DNA of 64,000 bases from Candidatus Atribacteria bacterium (GTDB lineage: Bacteria > Atribacterota > Phoenicimicrobiia > Phoenicimicrobiales > Stramentimicrobiaceae), in contig JAGYIZ010000003.1 of assembly GCA_018402425.1 (NCBI GenBank), positions 1 through 64,000 of the forward strand. Direction: 5' to 3'. The translations under genes were made by a program, and so were the position numbers. The first letter of the stretch is position 1; each line of letters begins with the position of its first letter. Below, piece after piece: positions 35,493-52,382 of the stretch. The notes below the pieces were generated by a model. That model ran no database searches and was not told the origin of the DNA. It saw only the letters and a program-made list of their open reading frames with translations.

Positions 35493-36614
35493 TTACTGTA
35501 AAAGTGTTAACATAACACCTGCGGCCACAGCGGTACCAATTACTCCGGCAACATTAGGTCCCATGGCATGCATTAATAGAAAATTTCGAGGGTTAGCGCG
35601 TTGACCTACAGTTTGAGCTACCCGAGCGGCCATCGGCACAGCTGATACTCCAGCAGCTCCAATTAAGGGATTAATCTTACCACCTGATAATTTATACATT
35701 ATCTGTCCAAACATAACCCCTCCAAATGTACCAAAAGCAAAAGCTACCAATCCCAGAGAAATAATCTTTATAGTTTCAACAGTCAGAAAATACTCAGCCT
35801 GCATAGTAGCACCAACACAGGTGCCTAGAAAAATTGTTACAATATTAATTAGTTCATTTTGAGCAGTATTGGATAACCGATTGACCACCATGCTTTCCCG
35901 AAACAAATTTCCCAACATCATAATACCGATAATAGGAACTGAAGCTGGCAATATTAAACCGACAAAAACAGTGCTAATAATTGGAAATAATATTTTTTCA
36001 GCTTTAGAAACAGGTCGTAATTGCTTCATGACAATTTTTCTCTGTTCTTTGGTAGTAAACATTTTCATAATCGGCGGTTGAATCAAAGGAACCAAAGACA
36101 TGTAAGAGTAAGCAGCTACTGCTATAGCGCCTAAAATATGCGGTGATAATTTAGAAGCAAGATAAATAGAAGTTGGTCCATCAGCTCCACCGATAATAGC
36201 AATAGCAGCCGCTTCTTGTAAGCTAAACCCTATTAAAACAGCTCCTATTAATGCAACAGAAACACCTAATTGCGCTGCGGCTCCCAAAAGAAATGTAGCC
36301 GGGTTAGCTAATAAAGGTCCAAAATCTGTCATTGCTCCAATCCCCATAAATATTAGAATGGGGAAAAGCTCATGTCGAATACCAAAGGAAAGTATTTGTA
36401 AAAAGCCTCCTTCTTCCATTAATCCGGTAAAAGGAAGGTTTACCAAAATAGCGCCAAAAGCAATTGGTAAAAGCAATAACGGCTCATATTTTTTTACTAT
36501 TGCAAGATAAAGAAGCATTCCCCCTACCAGCAACATAATAATACTTTCCACAGTAAGGCCGGTAAATCCCGATATCCTGATAATAGAAAATAGCGAGTTA
36601 ATAAAATTCATCAT
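35493..36614 (-). CDS. mmdB: sodium-translocating decarboxylase, beta subunit (MmdB/OadB/GcdB)
   Basis: The integral membrane subunit that decarboxylates carboxybiotin and exports Na+. About nine hydrophobic segments are visible, with the conserved [29 protein letters not shown] (carrying the key Asp of the Na+ path) and the C-terminal [20 protein letters not shown]. 373 aa is the family length. It is 17 nt after the biotin carrier gene. Neighbouring methylmalonyl-CoA mutase and epimerase genes make methylmalonyl-CoA, rather than oxaloacetate or glutaconyl-CoA, the likely substrate. Confidence 0.93.
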
Positions 36615-36631
36615 TTTCTCCTTTCTGATAG

Positions 36632-37048
36632 CTACCCGATAACCAACAGCGTATCATCAGTTTCAACCATATCATTAACTGAAACAGATAATTTTTTAAC
36701 CTTTCCACTGGTATTGGCAATAATTTCATTTTCCATTTTCATTGCCTCCAATATCAATACTGTATCTCCCTCATTAACGCTATCTCCTTCTGATACATTA
36801 ATTTTAAGAACCTTGCCTGGCATTGGAGACTGTATTTCCTCACCCGCTACACTGCCTTGAGCAGTAGACGGTTTTGTTTCTGTTTTTGGTGCTGCCTTAA
36901 CTTCAGGTTTTTTTGGTGTTTCTTTTTGCTCGGGTTGCTTACCCTGAGCTACTGATGGGGATGATGTAGAAGATTCTTTTTCTTCAGTTATTTCTTCTAC
37001 TTCTACCATATATTCCTGGCCATTAACTTTTATTTTGAATTGTTTCAT
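36632..37048 (-). CDS. mmdC: biotin carboxyl carrier subunit of the decarboxylase (MmdC-like)
   Basis: An N-terminal segment ([20 protein letters not shown]) is joined by a Pro/Ala/Lys/Thr-rich flexible linker (about residues 25-68) to a C-terminal biotinyl domain (about 70-138) with EAMKMENEI, whose Lys is biotinylated. It shuttles carboxyl groups from MmdA to MmdB. 138 aa is normal. It lies 4 nt after the delta subunit gene. Confidence 0.94.
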
Positions 37049-37052
37049 TATT

Positions 37053-37463
37053 TTAAAATCCTCCTCTTTTTCTGGAACTTATTGAAATCCTACTCGACAT
37101 AAGGTTTTGTTTTCCGGCTATAGTCCATGGACTTGCCCCGGCTGGAACGCTCCTGTTAATACTAATAATCTTTATTTTTTTCATAGAAACTTCCATATAA
37201 CTGGATAGAGCAGCAGAAATAACTGCAACTAATTCCTCTTTATATTCATCATCTTTCTTTATCTCCTTACTTTCCGCTTTTTCAGTAGTTAGTTTCCCCT
37301 TATCTGGAATCATTATTTTTTCTTCTTTGACTTGTTTCTTTGAAGTCAGCTTTATAACCTCTCGCAGTCCTATCATCAACAAGGCAAGTAAAGACAAAAT
37401 AACAAAAACTAGAATTACAACTGTGATAGCTATTTTAATAGCACCCTCAAGTCCAATATACAT
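37053..37463 (-). CDS. mmdD: OadG-family small membrane subunit (MmdD-like)
   Basis: One N-terminal transmembrane helix (AIKIAITVVILVFVILSLLALLMIGL, about residues 8-33), a charged Lys/Glu linker, and a C-terminal ELVAVISAALSSYMEV segment as in delta/gamma subunits of Na+ decarboxylases. It tethers the peripheral carboxyltransferase and biotin carrier to the membrane subunit. 136 aa is typical. It is located between mmdA and the biotin carrier. Confidence 0.88.
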   Translation of the reverse strand: MYIGLEGAIKIAITVVILVFVILSLLALLMIGLREVIKLTSKKQVKEEKIMIPDKGKLTTEKAESKEIKKDDEYKEELVAVISAALSSYMEVSMKKIKIISINRSVPAGASPWTIAGKQNLMSSRISISSRKRGGF

Positions 37464-37533
37464 ATTCCGTACCCCTTCTTTTTAATTAGAAGAAATTTAT
37501 TACTTAATTCCTCTTAGTTATTCTTTACAGCAA

Positions 37534-39116
37534 TTATACCGGAAGATTTCCATGTTTTTTCCCTGGTAAGCTTTCTCTTTTTGTAGATAACATCTCAAAG
37601 GCTGTTATCAATCTAGGCCTGGTCTCTCTAGGATCAATTATCATGTCTACATAACCTCTTTTAGCGGCTTCATAAGGGTTAGAAAATCTTTCTGCGTATT
37701 CGTCTATTTTTTGTTGGCGGAACTTTTCTGGGTCCTCTGCTTTCTCAATTTCTTTTCTAAAGATAATATTTGCAGCGCCCTGGGAACCCATTACTGCAAG
37801 CTCAGCAGTCGGCCATGCTATAACCTGATCTGCTCTTAACTCTTTACCACACATAGCCAAATAGGCCCCTCCGTAAGACTTACGTGTCACAACTGTTATC
37901 TTAGGAACTGTCGCTTCAGAATAGGCATATAATAACTTTGCACCATGTCGAATAATTCCACCATATTCCTGAGTAGTACCAGGTAAAAATCCGGGAACAT
38001 CAACCAAAGTTAAAATGGGTATATTAAAAGCATCACAAAACCGAACAAAGCGAGCAGCTTTATCAGAGGCATTAATGTCAAGACAGCCGGCAAGCACTTT
38101 AGGTTGATTGGCAATAATTCCAATACTCTGTCCTTTTAATCTGGCAAAACCGGTAATCATATTCCGAGCAAAATGTTCATGTGCTTCAAAAAAATCACCA
38201 TCATCAACAATATATTTAATTATATCTTTCATCTCATATGGTTTATTGGGGTCAGTTGGAACAATATTTAACAATGCCTCTTCCATGCGATTTGGATCAT
38301 CCTGGGTTTCCAAAATGGGAGGATTTTCCATGTTATTAGAAGGCATGTAGCCAATCATTTTCCGAACAGATTGAAATACCTCCTGCTCATTTTCAGCTGC
38401 AAAATGGGCAACACCACTCTTTTGATTATGTGTCATTGCGCCACCTAATTTTTCAGAGGAAACATCTTCACCTGTAACGGCTTTAATAACACTGGGTCCG
38501 GTGATGTGCATAATTCCTATTTTCTTTACCATAAAAACAAAATCCATAATGGCAGGTGAGTAAACTGCCCCCCCAGCAGTAGGTCCAACAACTACTGATA
38601 TCTGAGGAATTACTCCTGAAGCAATTGTGTTTCTATAAAATATTTCACCATATCCACTAAGAGAATCAACACCTTCCTGTATTCGTGCTCCTCCTGAATC
38701 ATTGATACCAATAACCGGCGCCCCCATCTTCATAGCCATATCCATTATCTTGCAGATTTTTTTGGAATGCATTTCTCCTAAAGAACCACCAATAACTGTA
38801 AAATCCTGGGAAAATACATATACTAAACGCCCATCAATGGTACCATAGCCCGTCACAACACCTTCTCCGGGCACTTCTTTCCAGCCATACCAAAATTTGT
38901 ACAACGATGCTCAACAAAGATATCCAGTTCATTAAAACTATCTTTATCCAATAACAAGTCTATTCTTTCTCTAGCTGTCAACTTACCTTTATCATGCTGT
39001 GCCTGAATTCTTTTTTTGCCGCCACCTGCTAATACTTTCTCTTTTTTTTCTTGCAGCTTTTTCATCAAATCATTGATTGATTGTTCCATTAAGCTTTCCA
39101 CCTCTCTTTTATTCAT
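37534..39116 (-). pseudogene. mmdA: methylmalonyl-CoA decarboxylase alpha (carboxyltransferase) subunit, one frameshift
   Basis: The carboxyltransferase moves the carboxyl group of methylmalonyl-CoA to biotin. The first 80 residues ([29 protein letters not shown]) run from 39116; the frame is lost at 38880 and continues in the next one from [11 protein letters not shown] to 37534 with SGGARIQEG, GPTAGGAVYSP, DVPGFLPGTTQEYGGIIRHGAK and KSYGGAYLAM. One additional A in GGAAAGAAG restores [14 protein letters not shown] exactly. I therefore call it one gene of about 527 aa, with a probable one-base undercall. Context with mutase and epimerase supports methylmalonyl-CoA or propionyl-CoA as the substrate. 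Confidence 0.88.
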
Positions 39117-39218
39117 TTTTAATATAAATATTTATTAATATTAAGACAAATGTTAGTAATTAAGCCTAGTCGTTTACTTAATAATAAAGATATTAAATAT
39201 GTTCTTTTGTTTTTTGTA

Positions 39219-39632
39219 TCAAGCTTTTTGTGATTTATGTTCACATAATTCCACTAAAATACCATTGGTGCTTTTAGGATGCAAAAAGGCGATTCGAGCT
39301 CCACCGGCTCCATAACGAGGTTCTTTATCAATTAATCGAACACCTTTTTTCTGTAAATTTTTCAACATAACATCTAAATCTTCAACTTCAAAAGCAATAT
39401 GATGGATACCTTCTCCTTTCTTTTCAATATATTTGGCAATATTTCCGTCAGGAGAGGTTGATTCCAGTAATTCTATTTCACTTTCCCCAACCGGTAAAAA
39501 GGCAACCTTAACATTCTGTTCTTTCACCTCTTCCTCTCCGGAGCATTTCATTCCCAAAACATCCTTAAAAATATGAAGCGATTCCTCCAGATTATTTACA
39601 GCAACTCCGATATGGTCAATTTTCTTAAACAA
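39219..39632 (-). CDS. mce: methylmalonyl-CoA epimerase
   Basis: Interconverts (R)- and (S)-methylmalonyl-CoA. A vicinal-oxygen-chelate protein of 137 aa with the metal-binding FKKIDHIGVAVNNLEES at the N-terminus, the middle LPVGESEIELLE strand, GEGIHHIAFEVEDL, and a final FLHPKSTNGILVELCEH. It is 2 nt downstream of meaB and about 100 nt upstream of mmdA, linking mutase and decarboxylase. Confidence 0.95.
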   Translation of the reverse strand: MFKKIDHIGVAVNNLEESLHIFKDVLGMKCSGEEEVKEQNVKVAFLPVGESEIELLESTSPDGNIAKYIEKKGEGIHHIAFEVEDLDVMLKNLQKKGVRLIDKEPRYGAGGARIAFLHPKSTNGILVELCEHKSQKA

Positions 39633-39634
39633 TG

Positions 39635-40591
39635 TTATTCACCCTCCTTAAATAGGTTTTCTTTAAAAATTGCAGATAGCTTTTTTACTGCATTGTAAGG
39701 ATTGTCATTCTGTTTTAGGACTCTTTCTACCTCTTTCTCCAACCTTTCCTCACTAATAAACTGAAAAAACATTTCTCGCCAGCTCTCTTGAAAGAGGTCA
39801 AATATTTCTTTTCTGGTCCTATTCTTCCTTCTTAAAAACATTTCTCCGCTTTCTTTCAGATAATCAGTACATTTTTCTACTTCTTTCCATAGAACATCAA
39901 TTCCAATATTCTCAGTCCCTACTGTTTTGAGGATAGGAGGATGCCACTTCTCTTCTTTTTCAATTAGATGTAACATCATTTCAATTTCAGCAATTAATTT
40001 ATCACTACCATCCCGATCTGATTTATTGACAACAAATATATCTCCTATTTCCATAATTCCCGCTTTAATAACCTGAATATCGTCTCCCATCCCCGGCATC
40101 ACTACCAACAAGACAACATCTGATACTTTAATAACATCAATTTCCGACTGTCCAACGCCTACAGTTTCTATAAAAATAAAGTCTTTCCCCATGGCATCCA
40201 TAATCTTGACAACTGCCTGAGTTGATCGGGACAATCCGCCTAAGTGACCACGAGCACCAACACTTCGAATAAAGACATCTTTGTCTGTTGTTAAATCCTG
40301 CATCCTTATTCGATCACCCAGTATAGCTCCTCCGGAAAAAGGACTGCTTGGATCTATGGCAATAATACCAACTTTTTTATTCATTTTCCTTAAATGCTTT
40401 GTCAGTTTATCAGTTATTGTACTCTTACCTGAACCGGGAGGTCCTGTTATACCTACAACAATAGCTTTGCCGCAATACTGATGTAATTCTTTCAAAAATG
40501 GTTGTGCATTTTGAAAATCATTTTCAACCATAGTTATTAATTTAGCAACTGCCCTACTATCACCATTTCGTATTTTTTCAGTTAAACTCAT
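39635..40591 (-). CDS. meaB: methylmalonyl-CoA mutase GTPase chaperone MeaB
   Basis: G3E-family GTPase that protects and reloads the adenosylcobalamin cofactor of the mutase. GPPGSGKST (Walker A, about residue 53), DPSSPFSGGAILGDRIRM, FIETVGVGQSEIDV and NKSD are all present. 318 aa is usual. The gene lies 24 nt after the B12-binding mutase subunit and just before the epimerase gene. Confidence 0.95.
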   Translation of the reverse strand: MSLTEKIRNGDSRAVAKLITMVENDFQNAQPFLKELHQYCGKAIVVGITGPPGSGKSTITDKLTKHLRKMNKKVGIIAIDPSSPFSGGAILGDRIRMQDLTTDKDVFIRSVGARGHLGGLSRSTQAVVKIMDAMGKDFIFIETVGVGQSEIDVIKVSDVVLLVVMPGMGDDIQVIKAGIMEIGDIFVVNKSDRDGSDKLIAEIEMMLHLIEKEEKWHPPILKTVGTENIGIDVLWKEVEKCTDYLKESGEMFLRRKNRTRKEIFDLFQESWREMFFQFISEERLEKEVERVLKQNDNPYNAVKKLSAIFKENLFKEGE

Positions 40592-40615: not shown

Positions 40616-41017
40616 TTAAGCAACAGCAACATTTGTTTTTATAAATTTAACGATTTTTTTAGTATCCGTACCTGGAGTAAATATCTCCTTTATACCCATT
40701 TTCTTTAATTCGGATATATCTTCAATAGGTATTATCCCGCCAGCAATAACCATAATATCAGTCATTTTTCTTTCTTCTAACATCTTAATTATTTTAGGAA
40801 ATATATACATATGTGCTCCGGATAGTATGCTAAGTCCAATTACATTTACATCTTCCTGAATTGCTGCTTCTATTATCTGTTCCGGTGTTTGTCTTAAACC
40901 GGTATAAATGACTTCCATTCCTGCATCTCGTAATGCTCTCGCTATTACTTTTGCTCCGCGGTCATGGCCATCTAAACCCGGTTTAGCAACCAAAACTCTG
41001 ATTCTTGATTTCTTCAT
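40616..41017 (-). CDS. mcmB: methylmalonyl-CoA mutase, cobalamin-binding subunit
   Basis: A stand-alone B12-binding domain of 133 aa: [23 protein letters not shown] contains the DxHxxG motif whose His ligates cobalt, with GLSILSGAH and VIAGGIIP further on. It pairs with the separate 558-aa catalytic chain 18 nt upstream. The two-polypeptide form is seen in archaea and many anaerobes, in contrast to fused mutases. Confidence 0.94.
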
Positions 41018-41035: not shown

Positions 41036-42712
41036 CTAAATCTTTATAGAATCCTTGTATTCACCAAAAATTTCTCTTAGTTGGTCACATATTTCTCCTA
41101 AGGTGGCATAGCCTTTAACGCAATCCATAATAAATGGCATCACGTTTTTATCCGAACTTGCTGCCTGTTTTAATAAATGCAGCGATTCTTTTACCTTAGA
41201 TTCGTCGCGGTTGTTTTTAACCTCTTCTAATTTTTTAATTTGTTGCTTTTCAATCTCCGGATTAACCTTAAGTAAATCCTTCATTGTTTCTTCTTCAGAT
41301 TCAAACTGGTTAACACCAACAATAATTCTTTTCTTATCTTCCACATCTTTCTGATATTGATAAGCACTATTTTGTATCTCTCTCTGGATAAAGCCTTTTT
41401 CAATCGCTTTTGGTGCACCACCCAATTTTTCAATTTGGTTAATATAGTCCATTACTGCATCTTCAATTTCTTTGGTCATTTTTTCAATATAATAAGAACC
41501 GGCTAAAGGGTCTACAGTCTCGGTTACACCACTTTCATGAGCGATAACCTGCTGTGTTCTCAATGCAATTCTTACTGCTTTTTGTGATGGCAAAGAAAGG
41601 GCCTCATCTCTTGAATTAGTGTGCAAGGACTGAGTCCCTCCAAGAACTGCTGCAAGTGCCTGTAAAGTAACTCTAATAATATTATTATCCGGTTGCTGGG
41701 CAGTTAGAGTACAACCAGCAGTCTGTGTATGGAAACGAAGCATTATAGATTTTGGATTCTTTGCACCAAAACGATCTCTCATAATTTTTGCCCACAATTT
41801 TCTTGCCGCCCTAAATTTTGCAACTTCTTCAAATAAGTCATTATGAGCATTAAAGAAAAAAGATAATCTGGGAGCAAATTTATCAACGTCCAAGCCTTTT
41901 TTTACTGCAGCGTCAACGTAGGCAATTCCATTGGCCAATGTAAAAGCAATTTCCTGTATTGCAGTAGAACCGGCTTCTCTAATATGATAACCACTTATAC
42001 TAATAGTATTCCATCTCGGTAATTCCTTGGAACAATAAGCAAAAATATCTGTAATTAGCCTCATGGATGGCAATGGTGGGAAAATATAAGTGCCTCTAGC
42101 AATATATTCTTTCAAAATGTCATTTTGAATTGTACCATTTAATTTAGCAGCAGAAACTCCCTGTTTTTCAGCTACCGCTATATACATGGCAAGTAAAACA
42201 GCTGCTGGAGCATTTATAGTCATAGAAGTGCTTACCTTTTCCAAGGGAATGCCTTCAAACAATATTTCCATATCCTTCAATGAATCAATTGCTACTCCTA
42301 CTTTCCCTACTTCTCCGTGGGACATTGAATGGTCAGAATCATAGCCGATTTGTGTTGGTAAATCAAAAGCAATACTCAAACCTGTTTGACCATTTTTTAG
42401 TAAATATTTATATCTTTTGTTTGATTCTTCGGCATCTCCAAAGCCGGCATATTGTCTCATAGTCCAAAATCTACCTCGGTACATTGTTGGTTGAACGCCT
42501 CTGGTATAAGGATAATCTCCCGGGTAACCTATCTCTTTCAGATAATCCAAATCCTCTAAATCCAAGGGATCATATAATCGCTTTACTTCTTTATTTGAAC
42601 CTGTCACGAATTGCTCTTTTCGTTCTGGAAATCTATCTAAAACCTTTTTTAGTGTCTTATCTGACCATTGTTCCCTGGCTTTTTTTATCTCTTTGTAATC
42701 CACGCCTTTCAT
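41036..42712 (-). CDS. mcmA: methylmalonyl-CoA mutase, catalytic large subunit
   Basis: The TIM-barrel chain that rearranges succinyl-CoA and (R)-methylmalonyl-CoA. [29 protein letters not shown] near residue 70, [36 protein letters not shown] and [19 protein letters not shown] are the family signatures, and the TMR-YAG segment favours methylmalonyl-CoA over ethylmalonyl-type mutases. 558 aa is normal for the unfused form. It opens the mcm-meaB-mce-mmd set. No cobalamin riboswitch fits in the 60 nt upstream. Confidence 0.95.
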
Positions 42713-42772: not shown

Positions 42773-43594
42773 TTATTTTTCAGTTTCCATAAGGAGATCT
42801 TCCACTAATACATTAATTTTAATAATATTGATGCCAGTAATATAATCTAATTCCTTCTTTAAGTTTTCCTGTATTCTTTTAACGATATTAGGGATATTCT
42901 TCCCATATCGTAAAATAAGGTTCATTTGTATTAAAATACCCTCTTCAGTAATATTAATCTTCGTTTTTCCAACTCTGATTACTTCCTTAAAATCTTTTAT
43001 AGTAAAAAAGATGATATCCAGAATAGCGTTTTCAGAAATAAAGAGTTTACCAAAATAACTAAAAGGTGGTCGAACTACGGTTCTTTCTCCAATCTTTCGA
43101 TTTCCATATCTCTTTCTGTAGAAAATTTCTAAAGACTCCACCAAATTGATGGGAAATTTTCTCTGCACCTCTATCCCTGGTAGGGGAATTATATGAGTTC
43201 CTTCTCGAGACCGACTGGTTCTGGCAATTTGTATTTCCTTCTCGCTGGAAATATCTTCAATTTGAAATGTTTGGCTTACAGGTGGTAATTCCAATGTCTG
43301 AACAATCTTCTCGACCATGTCTTTAGAAGTACCCAGAACCATTATCTTTTTTGGATTGTCCTGTTTAATAACATCCCGTACAGACTGAGCATGTTCTTTT
43401 TCAAAAAAAATGGCTCTCCTGATTGCTTGTATTCTATTAGCTTCCTTCTTTGCCGACAAACCTGCTAATATCCTATCTTTTCTAATTAACAGACCATCAT
43501 CAATAATATATTCAATATGCTCTTTATGAGCAATTAATAAAGCTTTATGGCTTTTACCTGTTCCACTTCCCCCTACCAGGGCAATTACCTTCAT
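42773..43594 (-). CDS. P-loop NTPase fused to an Asp23/Gls24-like domain
   Basis: The N-terminal half has a Walker A GGSGTGKS (about residues 8-15), a YIIDDGLLIRKDRILAG strand and a second nucleotide-related MVLGTSKDMVEKI segment. After about residue 175 a VVRPPFSYFGKLFISENAILDIIFFTIKDFKEV section begins an Asp23/Gls24-like domain to the end, with the alternating hydrophobic strands and the KELDYITGINIIKINVLVEDL helix-strand typical of that fold. I do not know its role. It sits between gdhA and the mutase genes, 22 nt from gdhA, and is probably co-transcribed. A regulatory NTPase or kinase-like activity is possible but not shown. Confidence 0.75.
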   Translation of the reverse strand: MKVIALVGGSGTGKSHKALLIAHKEHIEYIIDDGLLIRKDRILAGLSAKKEANRIQAIRRAIFFEKEHAQSVRDVIKQDNPKKIMVLGTSKDMVEKIVQTLELPPVSQTFQIEDISSEKEIQIARTSRSREGTHIIPLPGIEVQRKFPINLVESLEIFYRKRYGNRKIGERTVVRPPFSYFGKLFISENAILDIIFFTIKDFKEVIRVGKTKINITEEGILIQMNLILRYGKNIPNIVKRIQENLKKELDYITGINIIKINVLVEDLLMETEK

Positions 43595-43615: not shown

Positions 43616-44926
43616 CTACTTTTTTGTTTTTACCCATCCCCTGCCTTCTACTGCAAGGGCTACCCTCCTAACTGCAATAATATAAGCAGCATCTCGTGGA
43701 TAAAGTTTTTCTTTTTCCGCCAAATCAGCAACATCATTAAATGCATCAGTCATAATTTTTTCTAATTTTTCTAAAACTTCATCTTTTGGCCAATAATAAT
43801 TCATATTATTCTGCACTTGCTCAAAATAAGAAACCGTAACCCCTCCGGCATTACACAGAAAATCAGGGATAAGATATATATTTTTTTCTTTAATAACTTT
43901 ATCTGCGGCAGGTGTAGTGGGCGTGTTTGCTGCTTCTGCATATATTTTTACCTTATTAAAATCAATTTCATTAACATTATCAGCATGAACAGCTGAACCT
44001 AACGCTGCTGGTATTAAAACAGTTACCGGTTTTTTTAGCCAGGCATCTCCATCCTCTTGTTTCCAACCAAATGATTGAGCTTTTTTAGGATTGATTGTTC
44101 CAAATTTATCTAAAGTACCCGGAGCAAATAAATCTTCAGGTTTAATGCCATCTTCACAGCTGTAAGTATATGCCTTTTTATCATTAGCATCCCAACATGA
44201 CATGGCAATTACTTTACCGCCATACTCGACAAATTTTTCACAGCAATACTGGGCATTATTTCCTGCGCCTTGAATAGATGCAGTCGCATCTTTAAAGTCA
44301 ATATTCAAACGCTTCAATGCTTCCCTAACACAATAAATAACCCCATAGCCTGTTGCTTCCGTTCTACCTAATGATCCGCCGACACCGACTGATTTACCTG
44401 TTACAAATCCAGGTTTTCTACTCCTGGCGATAGTATCGTATTCATCCATTATCCATAACATATCCTGGGGATTGGTAGCTACATCAGGTGCAGGTACATC
44501 CATTTCAGGTCCCACAATATCGTATACCTTTCTTACCCAACCGCGACAAAGTTTTTCTGTTTCTCTGTCAGAAAGTTCCCTGGGATTACATACTACACCC
44601 CCCTTCCCTCCACCGAGGGGAATATTCACAACAGCACATTTCCAGGCCATCATCATAGCCAAAGCTCTGACCATATCAATAGTTTCATCCTCTGCAAACC
44701 TCAATCCACCTTTGGAAGGACCGCGTGCTGTGGAATGTTGAACCCGAAAACCGGTGAATGTTTTCGTAGTTCCATCATCCATTTCTACCGGTATTCTAAT
44801 TCTTATCTCCCGTTCAGCCTCTCTTAAAAACTCACGAATCGGTTCACTTAAACCACATTTTTCTGCATTAGAATCAAATTGCGATTGAACAATTTCGAAA
44901 GGATTCATTTTTTCATCTTTAGACAT
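43616..44926 (-). CDS. gdhA: glutamate dehydrogenase
   Basis: Oxidatively deaminates glutamate to 2-oxoglutarate with NAD(P). FTGFRVQHSTARGPSKGGLRF and MAWKCAVVNIPLGGGKGGV carry the substrate and catalytic Lys; PAPDVATNPQDMLWIMDEYD and the SVGGSLGRTEATGYGV / IQGAGNNAQYCCEKF dinucleotide-binding segments follow. 436 aa suits a hexameric class. It is 36 nt after nfnB and in one run with korDABC and ackA, so a catabolic direction delivering 2-oxoglutarate to Kor is inferred. The fingerprint IQGAGN rather than GxGxxG-Glu leaves the cofactor preference open. Confidence 0.94.
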   Translation of the reverse strand: MSKDEKMNPFEIVQSQFDSNAEKCGLSEPIREFLREAEREIRIRIPVEMDDGTTKTFTGFRVQHSTARGPSKGGLRFAEDETIDMVRALAMMMAWKCAVVNIPLGGGKGGVVCNPRELSDRETEKLCRGWVRKVYDIVGPEMDVPAPDVATNPQDMLWIMDEYDTIARSRKPGFVTGKSVGVGGSLGRTEATGYGVIYCVREALKRLNIDFKDATASIQGAGNNAQYCCEKFVEYGGKVIAMSCWDANDKKAYTYSCEDGIKPEDLFAPGTLDKFGTINPKKAQSFGWKQEDGDAWLKKPVTVLIPAALGSAVHADNVNEIDFNKVKIYAEAANTPTTPAADKVIKEKNIYLIPDFLCNAGGVTVSYFEQVQNNMNYYWPKDEVLEKLEKIMTDAFNDVADLAEKEKLYPRDAAYIIAVRRVALAVEGRGWVKTKK

Positions 44927-44962: not shown

Positions 44963-46393
44963 TCATTTTTTCTTTAAACTCTTTCCTGAAGATAGATAAG
45001 TAGCTATTGATCTAGCAGCCACTTTTCCGTCACCAACAGCCGATATAACAGTAGCCGCACCTCTTACTATATCCCCACCGGCAAAAATTCCTTCACAGGT
45101 TGTCATTCTTGTTTTTTCATCTATCTTAAAATATCCCCATTTGTTTACCTCAACTCCCTGCGCACTCTTGGCAATAATTGGGTTGGCCATGGTTCCAATG
45201 GCGTCAATCACCATATCTACTTCCAAAGTAAAATTGGATCCTTCGATAGGAATAGGTCTTCTTCGACCAGATTCATCTGGTTCTCCTAACTCCATTTTAA
45301 TACATTCCATGCCTGTTACTTTTCCTTCTTTATTCCCCAATACCCGGACAGGTAAAGTTAAAAAATTGAAAACAACTCCCTCTTCCTCGGCATGATGTAC
45401 TTCTTCTGCCCTAGCCGGAACTTCTTTTCTGGACCGACGATAAATGATATATGATTTTTCAGCACCAAGACGTAAGGCTGTCCGCGCAGAATCCATAGCA
45501 ACATTACCAGCTCCAATGGTGGCTGCCTTTCTGCCAATTTTTATCGGAGTATCATATTCAGGAAAAAGATAAGCTTTCATTAAATTAGAGCGAGTTAGAA
45601 ATTCGTTTGCTGAATAAACATCATTCATATTTTCGCCCTGAATGTTCATAAAACGAGGAGCACCTGCTCCATTTGCCAGAAATATTGCATCAAACTCCTT
45701 TTTTAAATCTTCTACACTGCCTGTAGCTCCAACAACATAATCAGTTATTACTTGAACTCCAATTTTTTTTATCTCATTGACCTCATATTCAACAATTGTT
45801 TTGGGAAGTCTGAATTCGGGAATACCATAGACCAGAACACCTCCAGGTTTATGCAGAGCTTCAAAAAGAGTCACATGGTAACCCATTTTAGCTAGATCAG
45901 CTGCACAACTTAAACCCGCCGGACCTGATCCTACCACAGCGACCTTTAAATCTTTTTTTGCAACACTGTCGGTTTTGCCATGAATATGATTTTTTCTAGC
46001 CCAATCAGCTACAAATCGTTCTAATCTTCCAATGGCTATAGGTTTACCAGTACTTTTTAAAACACATTCTTTCTGGCATTGCTCTTCCTGTGGGCATACT
46101 CTTCCGGTTACTGCCGGGAGGGCATCTGTCTTCAAAATTGTTAAATAGGCACTTTCAAAATCTTCTTCAACGATATACTTAATAAACAGCGGAATATTAA
46201 TTTCTGCTGGGCAACCTGTCATGCATTTCGGATTCTTACATTGCAAGCATCTTTGAGCCTCTTTAATGGCATCTTCTCTTGTATATCCTAATGGAACTTC
46301 CTTAAAATTGGCAATACGTTTGTTAGGAGATTGTTCCCTCATGGGAATTTGTTCTCGTTTCATTCTTTCTTTCACCGGTATCATATCAGCCAT
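44963..46393 (-). CDS. nfnB: NfnB / GltA-type FAD oxidoreductase (large subunit of NADH-dependent ferredoxin:NADP oxidoreductase)
   Basis: An N-terminal cysteine-rich domain (CLQCKNPKCMTGCP and GRVCPQEEQCQKEC) binds [4Fe-4S] clusters; AVVGSGPAGLSCAADLAKMGYHVTLFE binds FAD and TIGAGNVAMDSARTALRLGA binds NAD(P). An open frame reaches 46474, but the ATG at 46393 has AAGGAG 8 nt upstream and no large overlap, giving MADMIPVKERM and about 476 aa. It follows nfnA by 16 nt. NfnAB balances reduced ferredoxin, NADH and NADPH by electron bifurcation or confurcation. Homologues are often annotated as glutamate synthase small chain, which the context argues against. Confidence 0.92.
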   Translation of the reverse strand: MADMIPVKERMKREQIPMREQSPNKRIANFKEVPLGYTREDAIKEAQRCLQCKNPKCMTGCPAEINIPLFIKYIVEEDFESAYLTILKTDALPAVTGRVCPQEEQCQKECVLKSTGKPIAIGRLERFVADWARKNHIHGKTDSVAKKDLKVAVVGSGPAGLSCAADLAKMGYHVTLFEALHKPGGVLVYGIPEFRLPKTIVEYEVNEIKKIGVQVITDYVVGATGSVEDLKKEFDAIFLANGAGAPRFMNIQGENMNDVYSANEFLTRSNLMKAYLFPEYDTPIKIGRKAATIGAGNVAMDSARTALRLGAEKSYIIYRRSRKEVPARAEEVHHAEEEGVVFNFLTLPVRVLGNKEGKVTGMECIKMELGEPDESGRRRPIPIEGSNFTLEVDMVIDAIGTMANPIIAKSAQGVEVNKWGYFKIDEKTRMTTCEGIFAGGDIVRGAATVISAVGDGKVAARSIATYLSSGKSLKKK

Positions 46394-46409
46394 TATTTCT
46401 CTCCTTACA

Positions 46410-47243
46410 TTAACATTCTTCCTGATTCTTATGGTGATTCCAGGATTCTTTTTCTTCTTTCTTGTAGCGTCCAATCCTATTCATAAATCCATCCCAGTCA
46501 ACTAACTGTCCATCAAATTCCGGTCCATCAGTACAGACAAACTTGGTTTCTCCTCCTATGGATACTCTGCATGAACCACACATTCCTGTCCCATCAACCA
46601 TAATTGTATTTAGACTGACAATAGTATCAACGGAATAAGCCTTGGTTAAAGAGGTAGTAACTTTCATCATAATTGGTGGTCCAATTGTCCAAACTTTCTT
46701 AATATTATTATCATGGTCAAGTTTCTCTTTTAAGGCATCAGTTACAAAACCTTTTCTTCCATAACTTCCATCATCAGTAGTAATAATTAACTCATCTGAT
46801 ACCTGTCTTAACTCTTTTTCCATAATAATTAACTTTTTAGTTCTGGCTCCTATAATGGTAATAACCTTATTACCTGCTTTTTTTAAGTTACGGGCAATGG
46901 GATGAATACAGGCAATTCCCGTCCCTCCTCCAACCAAAACTACAGTTCCAAAATAGTCTATTTCAGATTTTTTGCCCAGTGGACCAATAAATGAATACAA
47001 ATAGTCCCCTTCTTTAAAGGAAGATAATTCATCAGTTGTCTTACCCACTATTTGAAAAACAATATATATTAATCCTTTTTCCCTGTCATAATCTGCAACA
47101 GTCAGTGGTATCCTTTCACCTTCCTCTCTTGTCATTAGGATAATAAACTGGCCAGGTTGTACAGTTCTTGCTATTTCCGGTGCTTTTATCCACATAGCAT
47201 AAATATCCTGGTAAAGTGTTTCTTTCTTAATAATCTGGTACAT
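46410..47243 (-). CDS. nfnA: NfnA / SudB-type flavin and [2Fe-2S] subunit
   Basis: Ferredoxin-NADP reductase-fold subunit of 277 aa. It has an FAD-binding barrel (RIPLTVADYD), an NAD-binding GGGTGIACIHPIARNLKKAGNKV segment, and a C-terminal MVDGTGMCGSCRV...FVCTDGPEFDG motif for the [2Fe-2S] cluster. It is 23 nt after ackA and 16 nt before nfnB. Dihydroorotate dehydrogenase electron-transfer subunits look similar, but the NfnB partner makes this reading firm. Confidence 0.92.
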   Translation of the reverse strand: MYQIIKKETLYQDIYAMWIKAPEIARTVQPGQFIILMTREEGERIPLTVADYDREKGLIYIVFQIVGKTTDELSSFKEGDYLYSFIGPLGKKSEIDYFGTVVLVGGGTGIACIHPIARNLKKAGNKVITIIGARTKKLIIMEKELRQVSDELIITTDDGSYGRKGFVTDALKEKLDHDNNIKKVWTIGPPIMMKVTTSLTKAYSVDTIVSLNTIMVDGTGMCGSCRVSIGGETKFVCTDGPEFDGQLVDWDGFMNRIGRYKKEEKESWNHHKNQEEC

Positions 47244-47266: not shown

Positions 47267-48475
47267 TTATTTTAATTTACTACATATTTCCATAGTATCA
47301 CGGGCAATCATTAATTCTTCATTGGTTGGTATAACCATTACTTTAACTTTTGAATTATCAGTACTTATAACTGTTTTGCTGCCTTTTGCATTATTATTTT
47401 TATTATCATCAATTTCTATGCCAAAACAAGTCAAGTCAGCACAAACATTTTTTCTTAGTTTAGGCGAATTTTCTCCTATACCTGCTGTAAAGACCAATAC
47501 ATCTAGACCATTCATCACTGCAGTATAAGCTCCAATATATTTTTTTAGTCCATAATGCAAAACATCCAGCGCTCTTTTTGCTTTTTTATCGCCTTTGCTG
47601 GCTTTCTCTTCCAAATCACGCTTATCACTTGATATTCCCTCTGATAATCCTATAAATCCGCTCTTTTTATATAAGATATTATTCATTTCTTCGGAATTCA
47701 GACCCTCTTTCTTCATTAAAAAAGGAATAACTGCAGGGTCAACATCACCACAGCGAGTTCCCATAATAACTCCTGATATTGTTCCAAAACCAAGACTGGT
47801 ATCAATAGATTTTCCATTTTTAACAGCAGTCAGACTGGAACCATTTCCAAGATGGCAGGTAATTACTTTTAATTCTTCCAGTTCTTTCCCTAACATTTCA
47901 GCTGCTTTTATGGCAACATATTTGTGAGAAGTACCATGGAAACCGTATTTTCTCACCCCATATTTTTCATAATAATGATAAGGCAATCCATAAAGATAGG
48001 CTTTCTCGGGAATCGTCTGATGAAAAGCAGTATCGAAAACTCCTACCTGAGGAGTATCCGGTAATAATTCCTGGCATACTTTTATTCCAAGTATATTAGG
48101 GGGGTTATGTAGTGGCGCTAATTCGATATATTTATTCAGGGTCTCCATTATATCTTGATTTATTAAAACAGATCCCGAATACTTCTCTCCACCATGAACA
48201 ACTCGATGACCAACAGCCGATATCTCTGAAATATCCTTGATAACACCATGATTATTATTCAATAAAGCATCTACCACCAATTCAATTCCTCTGCGGTGAT
48301 CAGGTATATCAATCTCTTTTTTCATAATATCTTTTCCAGTAGGGTAATGAGTAATCAATGACCCACTGATCCCGATCCTCTCTACTAAACCCTTCGCTAA
48401 TAATGATTCGTCGGTCATATCAAAAAGGCGATATTTTATTGAAGAACTACCACTATTAACTACTAATACCTTCAT
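47267..48475 (-). CDS. ackA: acetate kinase
   Basis: Makes ATP from acetyl (or propionyl) phosphate. MKVLVVNSGSSSIKYRLFDM, VGHRVVHGGEKYS, YGFHGTSHKYV, CHLGNGSSLTAVKNGKS and FTAGIGENSP are the complete set of signatures, at 402 aa. It lies between korDABC and nfnAB. No phosphotransacetylase gene is in the window. Because the surrounding pathway makes propionyl-CoA, propionate may be an additional substrate, but that is inference. Confidence 0.95.
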   Translation of the reverse strand: MKVLVVNSGSSSIKYRLFDMTDESLLAKGLVERIGISGSLITHYPTGKDIMKKEIDIPDHRRGIELVVDALLNNNHGVIKDISEISAVGHRVVHGGEKYSGSVLINQDIMETLNKYIELAPLHNPPNILGIKVCQELLPDTPQVGVFDTAFHQTIPEKAYLYGLPYHYYEKYGVRKYGFHGTSHKYVAIKAAEMLGKELEELKVITCHLGNGSSLTAVKNGKSIDTSLGFGTISGVIMGTRCGDVDPAVIPFLMKKEGLNSEEMNNILYKKSGFIGLSEGISSDKRDLEEKASKGDKKAKRALDVLHYGLKKYIGAYTAVMNGLDVLVFTAGIGENSPKLRKNVCADLTCFGIEIDDNKNNNAKGSKTVISTDNSKVKVMVIPTNEELMIARDTMEICSKLK

Positions 48476-48504
48476 TATAATTCCATCCCTCCAAATAATT
48501 TTTT

Positions 48505-49059
48505 CTATATTATTTTCAATTTTTCTCCTATTTTAAAACCATGTTCCAGGGCTTTTATATTTAACTCTTTTATCCTTGCAGGCATTCTGGCAGAAAGTGC
48601 TTTTTTTATTGCATCCCTGGTAACAATATCAGTTAATTGCACTATGATACCCAAAGATATAATATTAGTCACCAATTGATTACCAATCACTTTGATGGCA
48701 TCATCTGTAATAGGATGCTGGTATATTTTACCGGTAAAAGACGGCACTTTCAGCACATTAGTTGAATCTGCTAACAGAATTCCATCTTCACTTACATTTT
48801 TTATATATTTATCACAAGATTGTTGAGTTAAAGCCAGTAAAATATCGGACTTTATTACTTTTGGATAATCAATTTTTTCTTTGCTAATAATTACTTCTGA
48901 TCTACTTGCTCCTCCTCTGGCTTCCGGGCCATAGGATTGTGTCTGTACTACTTCAAAACCGTCATAAATACCGGCAGCCTCTGCCAAAATTATGCCAGCT
49001 AAAATCAATCCCTGTCCACCAGATCCACTTAAACAAATTTCTTTTCTTTCTTTATTCAT
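48505..49059 (-). CDS. korC: 2-oxoacid:ferredoxin oxidoreductase, gamma subunit (second set)
   Basis: Gamma subunit with CLSGSGGQGLILAG at the N-terminus and QSYGPEARGGASRSE, about 184 aa. The frame extends to 49086, but the ATG at 49059 follows GGAGGGGGAA and overlaps the korB stop by 8 nt, so I use it. It closes the gntR-korDABC set and precedes ackA by 30 nt. With glutamate dehydrogenase and methylmalonyl-CoA mutase in the same run, 2-oxoglutarate is the likely substrate. Confidence 0.92.
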   Translation of the reverse strand: MNKERKEICLSGSGGQGLILAGIILAEAAGIYDGFEVVQTQSYGPEARGGASRSEVIISKEKIDYPKVIKSDILLALTQQSCDKYIKNVSEDGILLADSTNVLKVPSFTGKIYQHPITDDAIKVIGNQLVTNIISLGIIVQLTDIVTRDAIKKALSARMPARIKELNIKALEHGFKIGEKLKII

Positions 49060-49879
49060 TTCCCCCTCCTTCTTGAGCAATGGCACAAACTTCTTTATAC
49101 TTATCAGTATATTCCGGTATACAAATGTCTAAAAATTCACCCATAGGAATTTTGTCTTTCTTTTCCTCAACAGATAATTTTTCCCATGTTTTTTTTGGTA
49201 CAGATATACTTTTTATCCACTCCATCATTTTAACAGGAGTCCTTAATTTATTCATCCTGCCATAAGAAATAGGACAATCTGAAATTATTTCAACAACTGA
49301 AAAACCTTTTTTACTTAACGCTTTTTTGATAAATCGTGTTCCTTGATTTGGGTTATAAATACTACTTCTTGCCACATATGAAGCACCTGCACTAGCGGCT
49401 AAAGCAGATAGATCAAAATTTTGATCAATATTTCCGTATGGTGCAGTAGAACCAAATTTTCCTGTGGGAGTCATTGGAGAATATTGTCCTCCGGTCATCC
49501 CGTATATCATATTGTTAATAATTACGGCAGTTATATCTATATTTCGACGTGCTGCGTGAATAAAATGATTACCACCTATAGCTGCACAGTCACCATCACC
49601 CATTACCGCTATTACTTTTAATTTGGGATTAGACATTTTAATGCCAGTTGCAAAAGGCAATGCTCTGCCATGCGTTGTATTCATAGTATTAAAGTCAACA
49701 TATCCGGTAATTCTACTGGAACAGCCAATTCCGGAAACCATTGCAACTTCATCCTTTTCCCAGCCTAAACTATCAATTGCCCGAATCAGGGCACCTAAAA
49801 CAATACCATTGCCACATCCCGGACACCAGATATGAGGAAACATCTCTTTTCTAATATATTTTTCAATAACATTCTTCAT
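49052..49879 (-). CDS. korB: 2-oxoacid:ferredoxin oxidoreductase, TPP-binding beta subunit (second set)
   Basis: Beta subunit with WCPGCGNGIVLGAL near residue 17, the GDGDCAAIGGNHFIHAARRN TPP/Mg motif and [14 protein letters not shown]. 275 aa is normal, a little longer than the first paralogue. Its ATG overlaps the alpha-subunit stop (ATGA). It is a 2-oxoglutarate-type (KorB) enzyme judged by context. Succinyl-CoA from it would feed the mutase encoded at 41.0-42.7 kb. Confidence 0.93.
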   Translation of the reverse strand: MKNVIEKYIRKEMFPHIWCPGCGNGIVLGALIRAIDSLGWEKDEVAMVSGIGCSSRITGYVDFNTMNTTHGRALPFATGIKMSNPKLKVIAVMGDGDCAAIGGNHFIHAARRNIDITAVIINNMIYGMTGGQYSPMTPTGKFGSTAPYGNIDQNFDLSALAASAGASYVARSSIYNPNQGTRFIKKALSKKGFSVVEIISDCPISYGRMNKLRTPVKMMEWIKSISVPKKTWEKLSVEEKKDKIPMGEFLDICIPEYTDKYKEVCAIAQEGGGNE

Positions 49880-51024
49880 TGACTCATTTCCTCCTCAATT
49901 TTTTCAAGGATTTCAATAGGATTTATCAAATCTCCATCAATCCGAGTATAAGATATAACGCGACTCTTACCCTGGGCTGCTCTTTGAACTTCTCTAACCA
50001 TCTGCCCTAAATTCATTTCCGGCACAACTATCAAGTCTACCTGGCTTGCTAATTGGTTAATTAAATCGTCATCAAAAGGCCATAAGGTTATTAATTTCAG
50101 TAGTCCTACTTTAATCCCTTTTTCTCTTGCTAATTTAACTGTTCTTTGTGCTGCCCTAGCAACAGAGCCGTAGGCTACTATTGCTATCTTTGCATCATCC
50201 AAAGAATATTCTTCTTTAATAACGATATCTTTTTTATTCAATTCCACCTTATTCGATAGTCTTCTTAAAAATTTATCAATCTCTTCAGCATCGGAAGTAG
50301 GGTAACCCTTTTCATTATGAACCAAGCCGGTTACGTGATATCGATAACCGCTACCAAAATCAGCCATAGGGGGCACCATGTCTTCATCCGCCTTAAAAGG
50401 CAGAAATTCATCTTTTTTTACATTAGTTTTTTTTCTATCTATAATTTCCAATTGCTCCCTGGAAGGAATATTTACTTTTTCACGCATATGTGCAATAACT
50501 TCATCTAATAATAACATAACCGGAGTACGATATTTCTCGCTAAAATTAACAGCTTTTACGGTTATTTCCAGTATTTCATTTACATCAGAGGGTGCAAGTG
50601 CAATCATGGGATGATCTCCATGGGTTCCCCAGCGTGCCTGCATCACATCCCCCTGGGAAGGTTTGGTCGGCAATCCGGTACTGGGGCCACCGCGTTGCGC
50701 ATTCACGATTACACATGGAATTTCACCTATTGCTGCAAAACCAATATTCTCCTGTTTTAAACAAATACCCGGACCCGAACTGGCTGTCATTGCCTTTAAT
50801 CCGGTTAATGAAGCCCCTATTACTGCTGCCATGCTGGCAATTTCGTCTTCCATCTGCATAAATTTTCCATCAATTTTTGGCAATCTTCTAGCCATTCCTT
50901 CAGCTATTTCCGAAGCAGGGGTAATCGGATAGCCGGCAAAGAAACGGATACCTGCCAAAAGAGCCCCTTCAACACAAGCTTCATTGCCCTGCAAAATTTT
51001 TACTATCTGCTTTTCATCACTCAT
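49876..51024 (-). CDS. korA: 2-oxoacid:ferredoxin oxidoreductase, alpha subunit (second set)
   Basis: Alpha subunit of about 382 aa with GNEACVEGALLAGIRFFAGYPITPASE, MTASSGPGICLKQENIGFAAIGEIPCVIVNAQRGGPSTG and VPEMNLGQM. TTG and two ATG codons overlap at the start; the second ATG is 7 nt from GGAGG and is used here, although the ATG at 51027 is nearly as good. The korD stop overlaps this region. The chain is about 30 residues longer than its paralogue at 1369-2424 because of an insertion near residues 190-240. Confidence 0.92.
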   Translation of the reverse strand: MSDEKQIVKILQGNEACVEGALLAGIRFFAGYPITPASEIAEGMARRLPKIDGKFMQMEDEIASMAAVIGASLTGLKAMTASSGPGICLKQENIGFAAIGEIPCVIVNAQRGGPSTGLPTKPSQGDVMQARWGTHGDHPMIALAPSDVNEILEITVKAVNFSEKYRTPVMLLLDEVIAHMREKVNIPSREQLEIIDRKKTNVKKDEFLPFKADEDMVPPMADFGSGYRYHVTGLVHNEKGYPTSDAEEIDKFLRRLSNKVELNKKDIVIKEEYSLDDAKIAIVAYGSVARAAQRTVKLAREKGIKVGLLKLITLWPFDDDLINQLASQVDLIVVPEMNLGQMVREVQRAAQGKSRVISYTRIDGDLINPIEILEKIEEEMSQ

Positions 51025-51026
51025 CA

Positions 51027-51302
51027 TCAATCCTCCAAACTTCCATCTTTCATATTATAGTTAGCAACTTTTTTTCTGTTCTCAACCCTAATTGCAAAAT
51101 CAGGACACCGCAGTTCACATAACATACACTGGATACAATCATCAATTTTTTCGGCAACAGGATAACCTTTTTCATTTGCTACAAGAACTTTTTTAGGGCA
51201 ATAGTTAATGCAGATCCCACACGATTTACACCATTCTTCATTGACAATGATCTTGGTTTCCTCATTCTGGTAGACCTTCATATTGTCTTTTTTTGTTACC
51301 AT
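51027..51302 (-). CDS. korD: 2-oxoacid:ferredoxin oxidoreductase, delta ([4Fe-4S]) subunit (second set)
   Basis: Ferredoxin-like subunit of 91 aa with CKSCGICINYCPKK and CIQCMLCELRCPD, i.e. two CxxCxxCxxxC cluster motifs. Compared with the first korD it has N- and C-terminal extensions of a dozen residues each. The ATG shares a base with the gntR stop (TAATG), so the regulator and the enzyme are one transcript. Confidence 0.92.
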   Translation of the reverse strand: MVTKKDNMKVYQNEETKIIVNEEWCKSCGICINYCPKKVLVANEKGYPVAEKIDDCIQCMLCELRCPDFAIRVENRKKVANYNMKDGSLED

Positions 51303-52288
51303 TATCTCACCTCTCTTTTTTTTATATCAAAAATTCTTTTTTTTAAAGTATCAATAGACCCTTTGTCAGGTATATACATGAATTCAATTAATGGAGTTGA
51401 TTCATTAATTAATTTCTGGACTTCTTTTTTTCTTCCGGGAGATACAATAAGGATATCGCGTTTGCCAATAAATTCTTTTAGTTTTTTGTTATCATGTGTT
51501 GTTATATAAGTAATACTTTTATATTTTATTCCGGCATATTTGATTGATTTGAAAACACGTTCAGCAAATTTTTGGGTCAAACAAACTAAACCTATTTTCA
51601 TTTCCGAAGAAGTAGCACGGGCGATATTTACCATAGTCTCAATTTGAGGGTCAAGTGCAATGGCAATTATATTCTTAGATTCATTTTTAAGAAATTCCTG
51701 TACCTCTTGGAAATGAAAAAAGGTTGTTACAACCAAATCCGCTGATTTTGTTTTAGCAATAAAATCCTCTGGATGATGATACATTTCATCAATTAGAATA
51801 GGAATTATGTGAATACCGGTACCTAATTCCAATTTTTTTGAAAAATAATATAATTGTTCTTGATTACACTCTACAAAAGCGATACTGACATTATTAAGCA
51901 AATGCTTTTTTTCCTGTAAACGTTGATTAACAAGATAAAGAAAGTCTTCAATTTGAATATTTAATTCCAGAGCTTTCTGGATAGCTAAATCAATATGTTT
52001 AATAAGAGGATTATTATTTTTTTGTAACAACAATGCTTTTGATTGATAACCGTCTGCAATAATAAAAGTTCCTTTCCCGGAAGTTGAAGAAATTATTTTT
52101 TCCCGGGCAAGCTCTTTATAAGCCATACTAACGGTATTCCGGCTAACACCTAGCTTGATTGACAACTCTCTTTCGGTAGGTAATTGGGTATTTTTTTCAA
52201 GTTGCCCTTCCATTATTAATTTTTTTAGGTATTCTTCTATTTGAAGGTAAAGAGGTATTCTACTATTCTTGTCAATCTTAATATCCAT
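51302..52288 (-). CDS. GntR-family transcriptional regulator with periplasmic-binding-like C-domain
   Basis: A winged helix-turn-helix of the GntR type (residues about 1-75, with IPLYLQIEEYLKKLIMEGQL, LPTERELSIKLGVSRNTVSMAYKEL and GKGTFI) is followed by a 250-residue C-terminal region with alternating strands (NVSIAFVECNQEQLYYFSKKLE, LVVTTFFHFQEVQEF, KIGLVCLTQKF, DILIVSPG), resembling a ligand-binding periplasmic-protein-like fold. 328 aa in all. It is the first gene of the korDABC-ackA-nfnAB-gdhA run, so it probably controls glutamate or 2-oxoacid use and its own expression. The effector is unknown. Confidence 0.85.
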   Translation of the reverse strand: MDIKIDKNSRIPLYLQIEEYLKKLIMEGQLEKNTQLPTERELSIKLGVSRNTVSMAYKELAREKIISSTSGKGTFIIADGYQSKALLLQKNNNPLIKHIDLAIQKALELNIQIEDFLYLVNQRLQEKKHLLNNVSIAFVECNQEQLYYFSKKLELGTGIHIIPILIDEMYHHPEDFIAKTKSADLVVTTFFHFQEVQEFLKNESKNIIAIALDPQIETMVNIARATSSEMKIGLVCLTQKFAERVFKSIKYAGIKYKSITYITTHDNKKLKEFIGKRDILIVSPGRKKEVQKLINESTPLIEFMYIPDKGSIDTLKKRIFDIKKREVR

Positions 52289-52323
52289 TATATATTTATA
52301 TATCCCTTTAAAATAGTATGATT

Positions 52324-52339
52324 GGACTAATTGACTAAT
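52324..52339. promoter_or_regulatory. candidate GntR operator (two GACTAAT repeats)
   Basis: GACTAAT occurs at 52325-52331 and again at 52333-52339, 8 bp apart, between the -10 box and the gntR start codon. A regulator bound here would block early transcription. Only position and repetition support the call. Confidence 0.3.
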
Positions 52340-52354
52340 GGATTAACCATTTAT

Positions 52355-52382
52355 AGAATACCATATCTCATTTTTTTGTCAA
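52355..52382 (-). promoter_or_regulatory. promoter of the gntR-korDABC run
   Basis: A perfect TTGACA and TATTCT (4 of 6) are 16 nt apart on the minus strand, about 70 nt upstream of the gntR ATG. The -35 box lies just after the TRAP permease stop. Confidence 0.6.

Follow-up and report, generated by a model that had tools for sequence, protein, structure and literature searches.

A conserved Atribacterota gene cluster predicted to ferment glutamate to propionate with sodium pumping

JS1 Atribacterota, the lineage to which we take the order considered here to belong, rank with the most common bacteria in anoxic sediments rich in organic matter and are known mainly from their genomes. Papers on JS1 describe its methylmalonyl-CoA genes as a route of propionate degradation (PMC6281690, PMC6776118), and a locus in one Candidatus Atribacteria bacterium raises the question of which way such genes run. 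The window, meaning the whole stretch of 64,000 nucleotides analysed, is part of contig C61 (JAGYIZ010000003.1) of a 2.13 Mb genome in 137 contigs that is 78.6% complete (G000), and from 52.3 to 35.5 kb it carries 18 neighbouring genes on the minus strand. We consider it probable, at roughly two chances in three, that this block encodes a complete fermentation route from glutamate to propionate with sodium pumping.

Gene identities were assigned from a listing of open reading frames (ORFs) and hmmscan family models, with PDB chain comparisons for KorA, KorB and glutamate dehydrogenase (GDH). This revealed the order gntR-korDABC-ackA-nfnAB-gdh-Asp23P-mcmAB-meaB-epi-mmdADCB, with intergenic distances of -65 to +102 bp. 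Every gene that an initial annotation had named was recovered on this strand in its place, with the start of gntR corrected to 52288; the annotation had overlooked the Asp23P gene (42773..43594) between gdh and mcmA, which encodes 273 amino acids with a P-loop (GGSGTGKS) and an Asp23 C-terminal domain (PF03780, 43 bits).

The four-subunit korDABC oxidoreductase is complete with its family domains: korD (51027..51302) encodes the ferredoxin-like delta subunit (best match OGOR_delta, 60 bits, under cut-off), korA (49876..51030) the alpha subunit, korB (49052..49879) the beta subunit and korC (48505..49086) the gamma subunit (PRK08537, 205 bits). Comparison of KorA with models of differing specificity gave 589 bits for PRK08659 (cut-off 411), 430 for OorA, 323 for VorB, 112 for PorA and 85 for IorA, and its nearest solved chains were 1yd7 and 8ys5 (2-oxoglutarate synthase), followed by 6n2n, which we take to be the Magnetococcus 2-oxoglutarate enzyme. 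KorB matched PRK09628 (OorB) best, at 340 bits (cut-off 364) as against 243 bits for the Kor paralogue of the same genome, and aligned with 8ys5 at E 3e-85; its GIGCSSR motif belongs to the pattern GIGCS[SG]R found in all mutase-linked KorB and in 8ys5, and paralogues have GIGCWGK or GIGCSGW where read. Both chains score under the OorA and OorB equivalog cut-offs, their best matches being 2-oxoglutarate or general 2-oxoacid types. By these comparisons KorAB appear nearer to 2-oxoglutarate models than to pyruvate, valine or aromatic ones, and a grouping with pyruvate or aromatic enzymes, which the initial annotation had raised as a danger to its reading, emerged from neither the HMM nor the PDB matches. 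A KorA tree needed one change to account for the mutase-linked sequences; with 54% support for their group and PDB anchors on very long branches, it was set aside as proof of specificity.

The two chains of methylmalonyl-CoA mutase and its associated GTPase all scored above cut-off: mcmA (41036..42712; large chain, TIGR00641, 835 bits), mcmB (40616..41017; B12-binding chain, TIGR00640, 182 bits) and meaB (39635..40591; TIGR00750, 354 bits). Residues Y88 and R218 are invariant in seven relatives, as in methylmalonyl-CoA mutases, and the position of the tyrosine is occupied by isoleucine in 2-hydroxyisobutyryl-CoA mutase (4r3u). The epimerase gene follows (epi, 39219..39632; TIGR03081, 169 bits), and upstream of Asp23P lie gdh (43616..44926; GdhA_Arch, 454 bits), whose product is nearest to archaeal hexameric enzymes (1gtm, E 2e-119), nfnB (44963..46474; TIGR01316, 604 bits), nfnA (46410..47243; PRK06222, 415 bits) and ackA, an acetate/propionate kinase gene (47267..48475; TIGR00016, 514 bits).

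The alpha, beta, biotin-carrier and small anchor subunits of a Na+-pumping decarboxylase are encoded together, as the initial annotation had it, with the qualification that the carboxyltransferase gene mmdA (37534..39116) is split in this assembly into two ORFs (38853-39116 and 37534-38904; TIGR01117, 85 and 809 bits). A one-base deletion near 38880 (38870-38885) breaks the frame; eight aligned relatives are intact, and the deletion is private to this assembly, an assembly error or a recent mutation. The remaining subunits are mmdD (37053..37463; an OadG-type membrane anchor, PF04277, 29.7 bits, above cut-off), mmdC (36632..37048; biotin carrier with an EAMKM site, PF00364, 72 bits; MmdC equivalog model 97 bits against a cut-off of 200) and mmdB (35493..36614; Na+-translocating membrane subunit, TIGR01109, 488 bits). 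Alignment of MmdB with 6iva revealed that the equivalents of D203, S382 and N412, which bind Na+ in the oxaloacetate decarboxylase OadB (PMC7274780), are kept, as are N373 and G377, with S419 replaced by Thr; MmdADCB is described here as a predicted Na+ pump.

Read as a route, the operon would begin with glutamate uptake, possibly via the TAXI-TRAP transporter encoded upstream, and deamination by Gdh to 2-oxoglutarate and NAD(P)H. KorDABC would convert 2-oxoglutarate to succinyl-CoA, CO2 and reduced ferredoxin; McmAB, protected by MeaB, would form (R)-methylmalonyl-CoA, which the epimerase would turn into the (S) form; and the biotin enzyme MmdADCB would decarboxylate this to propionyl-CoA with export of Na+. 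A phosphotransacylase encoded elsewhere, together with AckA, would then yield propionate and ATP, and NfnAB would balance NADH, NADPH and ferredoxin. Electrons would leave as H2, so that the organism would probably be syntrophic; on glutamate, Aminomonas shifts toward propionate with a methanogen partner (PMC3035310). Direction, substrate, Na+ pumping, co-expression and the action of AckA on propionyl phosphate are all things that we infer.

The remaining steps were sought in 50 Atribacterota genomes of seven families, in which the order of the window comprises 24 genomes from two families (f1, that of the window, and f2) and 26 further genomes lie outside it. Every enzyme from glutamate to propionyl-CoA, and a phosphotransacylase and kinase besides, is encoded in the genome of the window. 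Each of the 24 genomes of the order encodes a PTA/PTB-family protein, 17 of them, that of the window included, giving a strong Pta-like match, and [FeFe]-hydrogenase occurs in the window's genome and in 8 of the 10 f1 genomes. PduL, considered as the phosphotransacylase of f1, was ruled out because it occurs only in f2.

Extraction of the cluster regions of relatives, which were then searched with the window proteins, showed that the arrangement of the genes has been preserved in ten genera belonging to two families, bearing out the conservation that the initial annotation had proposed to look for within Atribacterota. The 21 other members of the order whose regions were inspected all show this arrangement, Asp23P included, with fragments stopping at contig ends, and DUF5693 and csaB lie downstream of mmdB in relatives too. 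Because this order is conserved across relatives, the cluster is not a product of chance. Besides that of the window, 20 genomes of the order have KorA orthologues of 70-83% identity (21/24 in all), and 23/24 have the mutase; outside the order, KorA (a 53% copy) and the mutase co-occur in the same single genome of the 26 (G026), and none of the remaining 25 has the mutase. G026 carries gntR-korDABC-Asp23P-mcmAB-meaB-epi-mmdA and lacks ackA-nfnAB-gdh, and since it keeps Kor and mutase without those genes, the two belong together. Two local variants were seen: G038 (L087) has no nfnAB between ackA and gdh, and the cluster ackA of G033 is internally shortened (L044, 7063-7488).

The run is likely to be one GntR-regulated operon. 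Its first gene, gntR (51302..52288), combines a GntR DNA-binding domain (PF00392, 64 bits) with a large C-terminal domain and stands in the same place in relatives; a fold search with its structure model matched GntR DNA-binding domains. Ahead of it lies a promoter-like site, TTGACA-16-TATTCT (52355-52382), directly followed by a candidate GntR operator, TTAATCCATTAGTCAATTAGTCCAAT (52321..52346, minus strand), that is conserved upstream of gntR. The upstream regions of relatives likewise have a -35/-10-like pair and then a sequence like GACTAATCCATTAGTCCATTAGTCCAAT, laid out as a 7-2-7 palindrome (GACTAAT-CC-ATTAGTC) with one more half site; the site is kept ahead of gntR in most relatives of both families, and G026 carries GGATTAGTCCATTAGTC at the equivalent place. 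A relaxed 26-mer matched once per genome in 12 genomes, directly ahead of gntR in most of them, and a reversed-pattern control gave 0 matches; the match lies on a different contig in G044 and G047, and in G043 an operator-like site stands ~520 bp upstream of gntR, behind a repeat-rich insert. GntR would, on this evidence, autoregulate the operon through the candidate operator. A repeat-rich insert separates gntR from the usual promoter/operator in genus g4 (L039, L040). Terminator-like sites in the region numbered 15 against 13.4 in shuffles, showing no excess.

Does the operon start from glutamate or end there? The reverse reading, in which Mmd uses a Na+ gradient to carboxylate propionyl-CoA and the product passes by way of succinyl-CoA and Kor to 2-oxoglutarate and on to glutamate or elsewhere, would make it a locus of propionate oxidation or assimilation, as JS1 genomes have been described (PMC6281690, PMC6776118). 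AckA and phosphotransacylase would be able to activate propionate, and a 2026 study proposes just this direction for Cloacimonadota, with kor beside epimerase and Mmd (PMC13082233). That system resembles the present one in having Kor, an epimerase, a Na+-dependent Mmd and a 2-oxoglutarate node; it differs in its direction, in using aspartate aminotransferase after 2-oxoglutarate in place of an operon-borne Gdh, and, as far as the available part of the paper goes, in that no GntR operon is described.

Classical syntrophic propionate oxidisers share the mutase, epimerase and carboxyltransferase with this locus but require succinyl-CoA synthetase and succinate dehydrogenase, and both went undetected in most of f1. 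Searches with TIGR01016 gave no succinyl-CoA synthetase match in the window's genome or in G041, G042 (listed as 100% complete), G043 and G044, and matches that were weak (<48 bits) or under cut-off in the other f1 genomes; those above cut-off came only from the f2 genomes G028, G031, G032 and G035. The succinate dehydrogenase flavoprotein C-domain PF02910 had no match in 8 of the 10 f1 genomes, and the complete G042 matched neither enzyme. In f2, the search turned up frames of ~530 amino acids that it did not separate from aspartate oxidase; class I fumarase is widespread. The incompleteness of metagenome-assembled genomes restricts what absences can show, and yet repeated absence in complete genomes is unlikely to be accidental. 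Because synthetase and dehydrogenase were undetected, the classical route via succinate appears closed in most of f1, where Kor would be the visible exit from succinyl-CoA.

A reverse run would thus lack its succinate exit in most f1 genomes and would end at glutamate, which is not a catabolic product. Kor in the carboxylating direction also requires low-potential ferredoxin, and the gdh within the run and the TAXI transporter upstream suggest amino-acid uptake. We therefore regard the reverse direction as unlikely, although it is the rival to be taken most seriously, and the glutamate-to-propionate route appears a better reading than classical propionate oxidation. This pathway reading, already that of the initial annotation, is the best supported one, by its enzymes, its residues, the PTA/PTB proteins and the hydrogenase, with the direction still a matter of interpretation.

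Several points weigh against it. All of its steps are reversible in principle, and the related Cloacimonadota gene set is read as propionate oxidation (PMC13082233). KorA by itself, with 54% tree support and long-branch anchors, leaves specificity unsettled; KorB, MmdA and MmdC fall short of equivalog specificity cut-offs and so are not decisive; and mmdA is frameshifted in this assembly. Finally, the f1 genomes G045 and G048 contain succinyl-CoA synthetase-like genes under cut-off, four f2 genomes contain genuine ones, and [FeFe]-hydrogenase was not found in most f2 genomes.

Oxidative glutamate fermentation to propionate is known from Synergistota, Gelria and Acidaminobacter. Those fermenters and the predicted route have in common glutamate deamination, conversion of 2-oxoglutarate to succinyl-CoA, a B12 mutase, methylmalonyl-CoA decarboxylation and transfer of H2 to a partner; here, by comparison, a single run under a regulator of its own holds every step except phosphotransacylase and hydrogenase. 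In Acidaminobacter hydrogenoformans mcmAB-meaB-epi-mmd lie away from gdh, with no kor adjoining. The decarboxylase of Propionigenium and Veillonella is likewise a biotin-dependent Na+ pump (predicted here, with the Na+ ligands conserved), but succinyl-CoA comes from succinate in those organisms (PMC8473912) and would come from 2-oxoglutarate here.

The initial annotation had taken the compact clustering to be the unusual part, and this holds only in part. A survey with the mutase as query over 84,980 species genomes, in which 80 loci were annotated, found korDABC beside mcmAB-meaB-epi-mmd in Tepidanaerobacter sp. EBM-38, Romboutsia, Clostridium sp. CCUG 7971, Treponema and other Spirochaetota, that is, in Bacillota and Spirochaetota, and Candidatus Fermentithermobacillaceae have a gntR-korDABC-mcmA-epi form with a gntR 40% identical to that of the window. 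Tepidanaerobacter sp. EBM-38 (L101) comes closest, with the single run korDABC-gdh-mcmA-mcmB-meaB-epi-mmdA-mmdD-mmdC-mmdB (korA 53% and gdh 46% identical); unlike the present operon, its run is without gntR, ackA, nfnAB and Asp23P, and its Asp23P lies elsewhere, adjoining nfnAB. Kor-mutase coupling thus occurs in at least three phyla, with gdh within the run in two. No account of a gdh-kor-mcm-mmd operon came up in a literature search, within a coverage of Atribacteria papers that is incomplete and leaves an earlier mention possible.

The same survey bears on a second rival, by which Kor would act mainly on another 2-oxoacid (2-oxobutyrate or branched-chain) and would share with the mutase branch only its regulation, the two serving different amino acids. 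The scores of KorA and KorB under the OorA/OorB cut-offs leave room for this, and a relative, StOFOR, is promiscuous for pyruvate, 2-oxobutyrate and 2-oxoglutarate (PMC5020499). It is nevertheless the 2-oxoglutarate-type models and chains that score best with both subunits, a separate Kor paralogue adjoins ptb in this genome, and the fact that Kor recurs with the mutase where gdh is not part of the cluster, as in G026, Clostridia and Spirochaetota, is sensible if succinyl-CoA is the link; we consider this rival quite improbable.

How such a locus came to be is suggested by families outside the order. In f4-f6, where neither the mutase nor this Kor occurs, an Asp23P homologue stands directly ahead of an mmdA homologue at 10/10 loci inspected, as it does in one f3 genome, and longer f3-f6 regions (L236-L239) read secA-prfB-Asp23P-mmdA-mmdC-DUF5693-csaB-tagA-ftsE-ftsX-envC-ctpA, with no mmdB. 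The window shares this backbone, from secA (63.4 kb) and prfB (60.8 kb) to csaB, ftsE, ftsX, envC and ctpA (33-28 kb). On account of that shared order, the pathway genes can be read as three blocks set into it: firstly, between prfB and Asp23P, gntR to gdh along with the TRAP genes and some others; secondly, mcmAB-meaB-epi between Asp23P and mmdA; thirdly, mmdB after mmdC. The locus was probably assembled by insertion into an ancestral backbone rather than by loss elsewhere, since G026 holds an intermediate set. That f3-f6 retain secA-prfB-Asp23P-mmdA-mmdC-DUF5693-csaB but have no kor, gdh, mutase or mmdB could also mean a mostly inherited locus, with mmdA, mmdC and Asp23P ancestral and pathway genes gathered without tight functional coupling, but what was inserted corresponds exactly to the pathway steps that were missing, and the gene order is constant over two families behind a single promoter/operator, so that we give this last rival hardly any credence.

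Asp23P itself is single-copy and present in 42/50 Atribacterota genomes, and 10 of the 14 named genomes compared from other phyla have a full-length copy. It adjoins gdh in Acidaminobacter, Romboutsia and Clostridium and nfnAB in Tepidanaerobacter (Asp23P loci L193, L194, L198 and L199), and has differing neighbours in Spirochaetota; the Atribacterota backbone leaves this gdh/nfn link in other phyla unexplained. A fold search for its function (with a model of middling quality, pTM 0.52) gave no match under E 0.001, only a small-domain likeness to cation-efflux C-terminal domains, and was discarded. We tentatively propose, as a possibility that could well prove wrong, that the JS1 methylmalonyl-CoA genes are, in this order, a glutamate operon built around the ancestral locus secA-prfB-Asp23P-mmdA-mmdC-csaB, in which an old biotin carboxyltransferase became a Na+ pump when mmdB was acquired, and Asp23P serves as an unrecognised accessory or regulator.

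Directly upstream of gntR lies the TAXI-TRAP transporter (52391..55870, minus strand), a candidate for glutamate or 2-oxoacid uptake, composed of a fused membrane protein (52391-54421), DUF1850 (54384-54920) and a TAXI binding protein (54911-55870) homologous to 1us4/1us5, which were deposited as a putative GluR0 ligand-binding core. It adjoins the cluster in four relatives of two families and is apart from it in others. No second operator was found in the window within 3 mismatches, including at the TAXI gene, so this search gives no sign that the transporter shares the GntR regulator. The strongest hairpin (19 pairs and a T tail, 54858-54900, minus strand) is not in the run itself but separates the TAXI gene from DUF1850, and is possibly an attenuator favouring the binding protein over the transporter. 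Close to the glutamate operon, 56003-57832 (minus strand) encodes a 609-aa KamA-family radical SAM protein whose best equivalog, glutamate 2,3-aminomutase, scores 184 bits, far under the cut-off of 650. At 3569-6574 (minus strand) a phosphate butyryltransferase gene stands between two butyrate kinase genes, and a second korDABC (G000:C1:55818) is likewise beside ptb; these ptb-linked genes and the second korDABC suggest a branched-chain 2-oxoacid module.

The enzymes of this locus are ordinary and the conversion is a known one, but they appear here in a well conserved, singly regulated operon form that argues against the propionate-consumer reading for f1. Kor-mutase clustering already occurs elsewhere; what is new is the manner in which the locus would have been assembled, which illustrates the building of a catabolic pathway beside a pre-existing biotin enzyme, and Asp23P stands out as a family of uncharacterised proteins linked to the amino-acid metabolism of anaerobes. 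If the operon does run from glutamate, the cells would turn protein into propionate, ammonia and H2 instead of using propionate up, and the place of JS1 in the sediment food web would be reversed.

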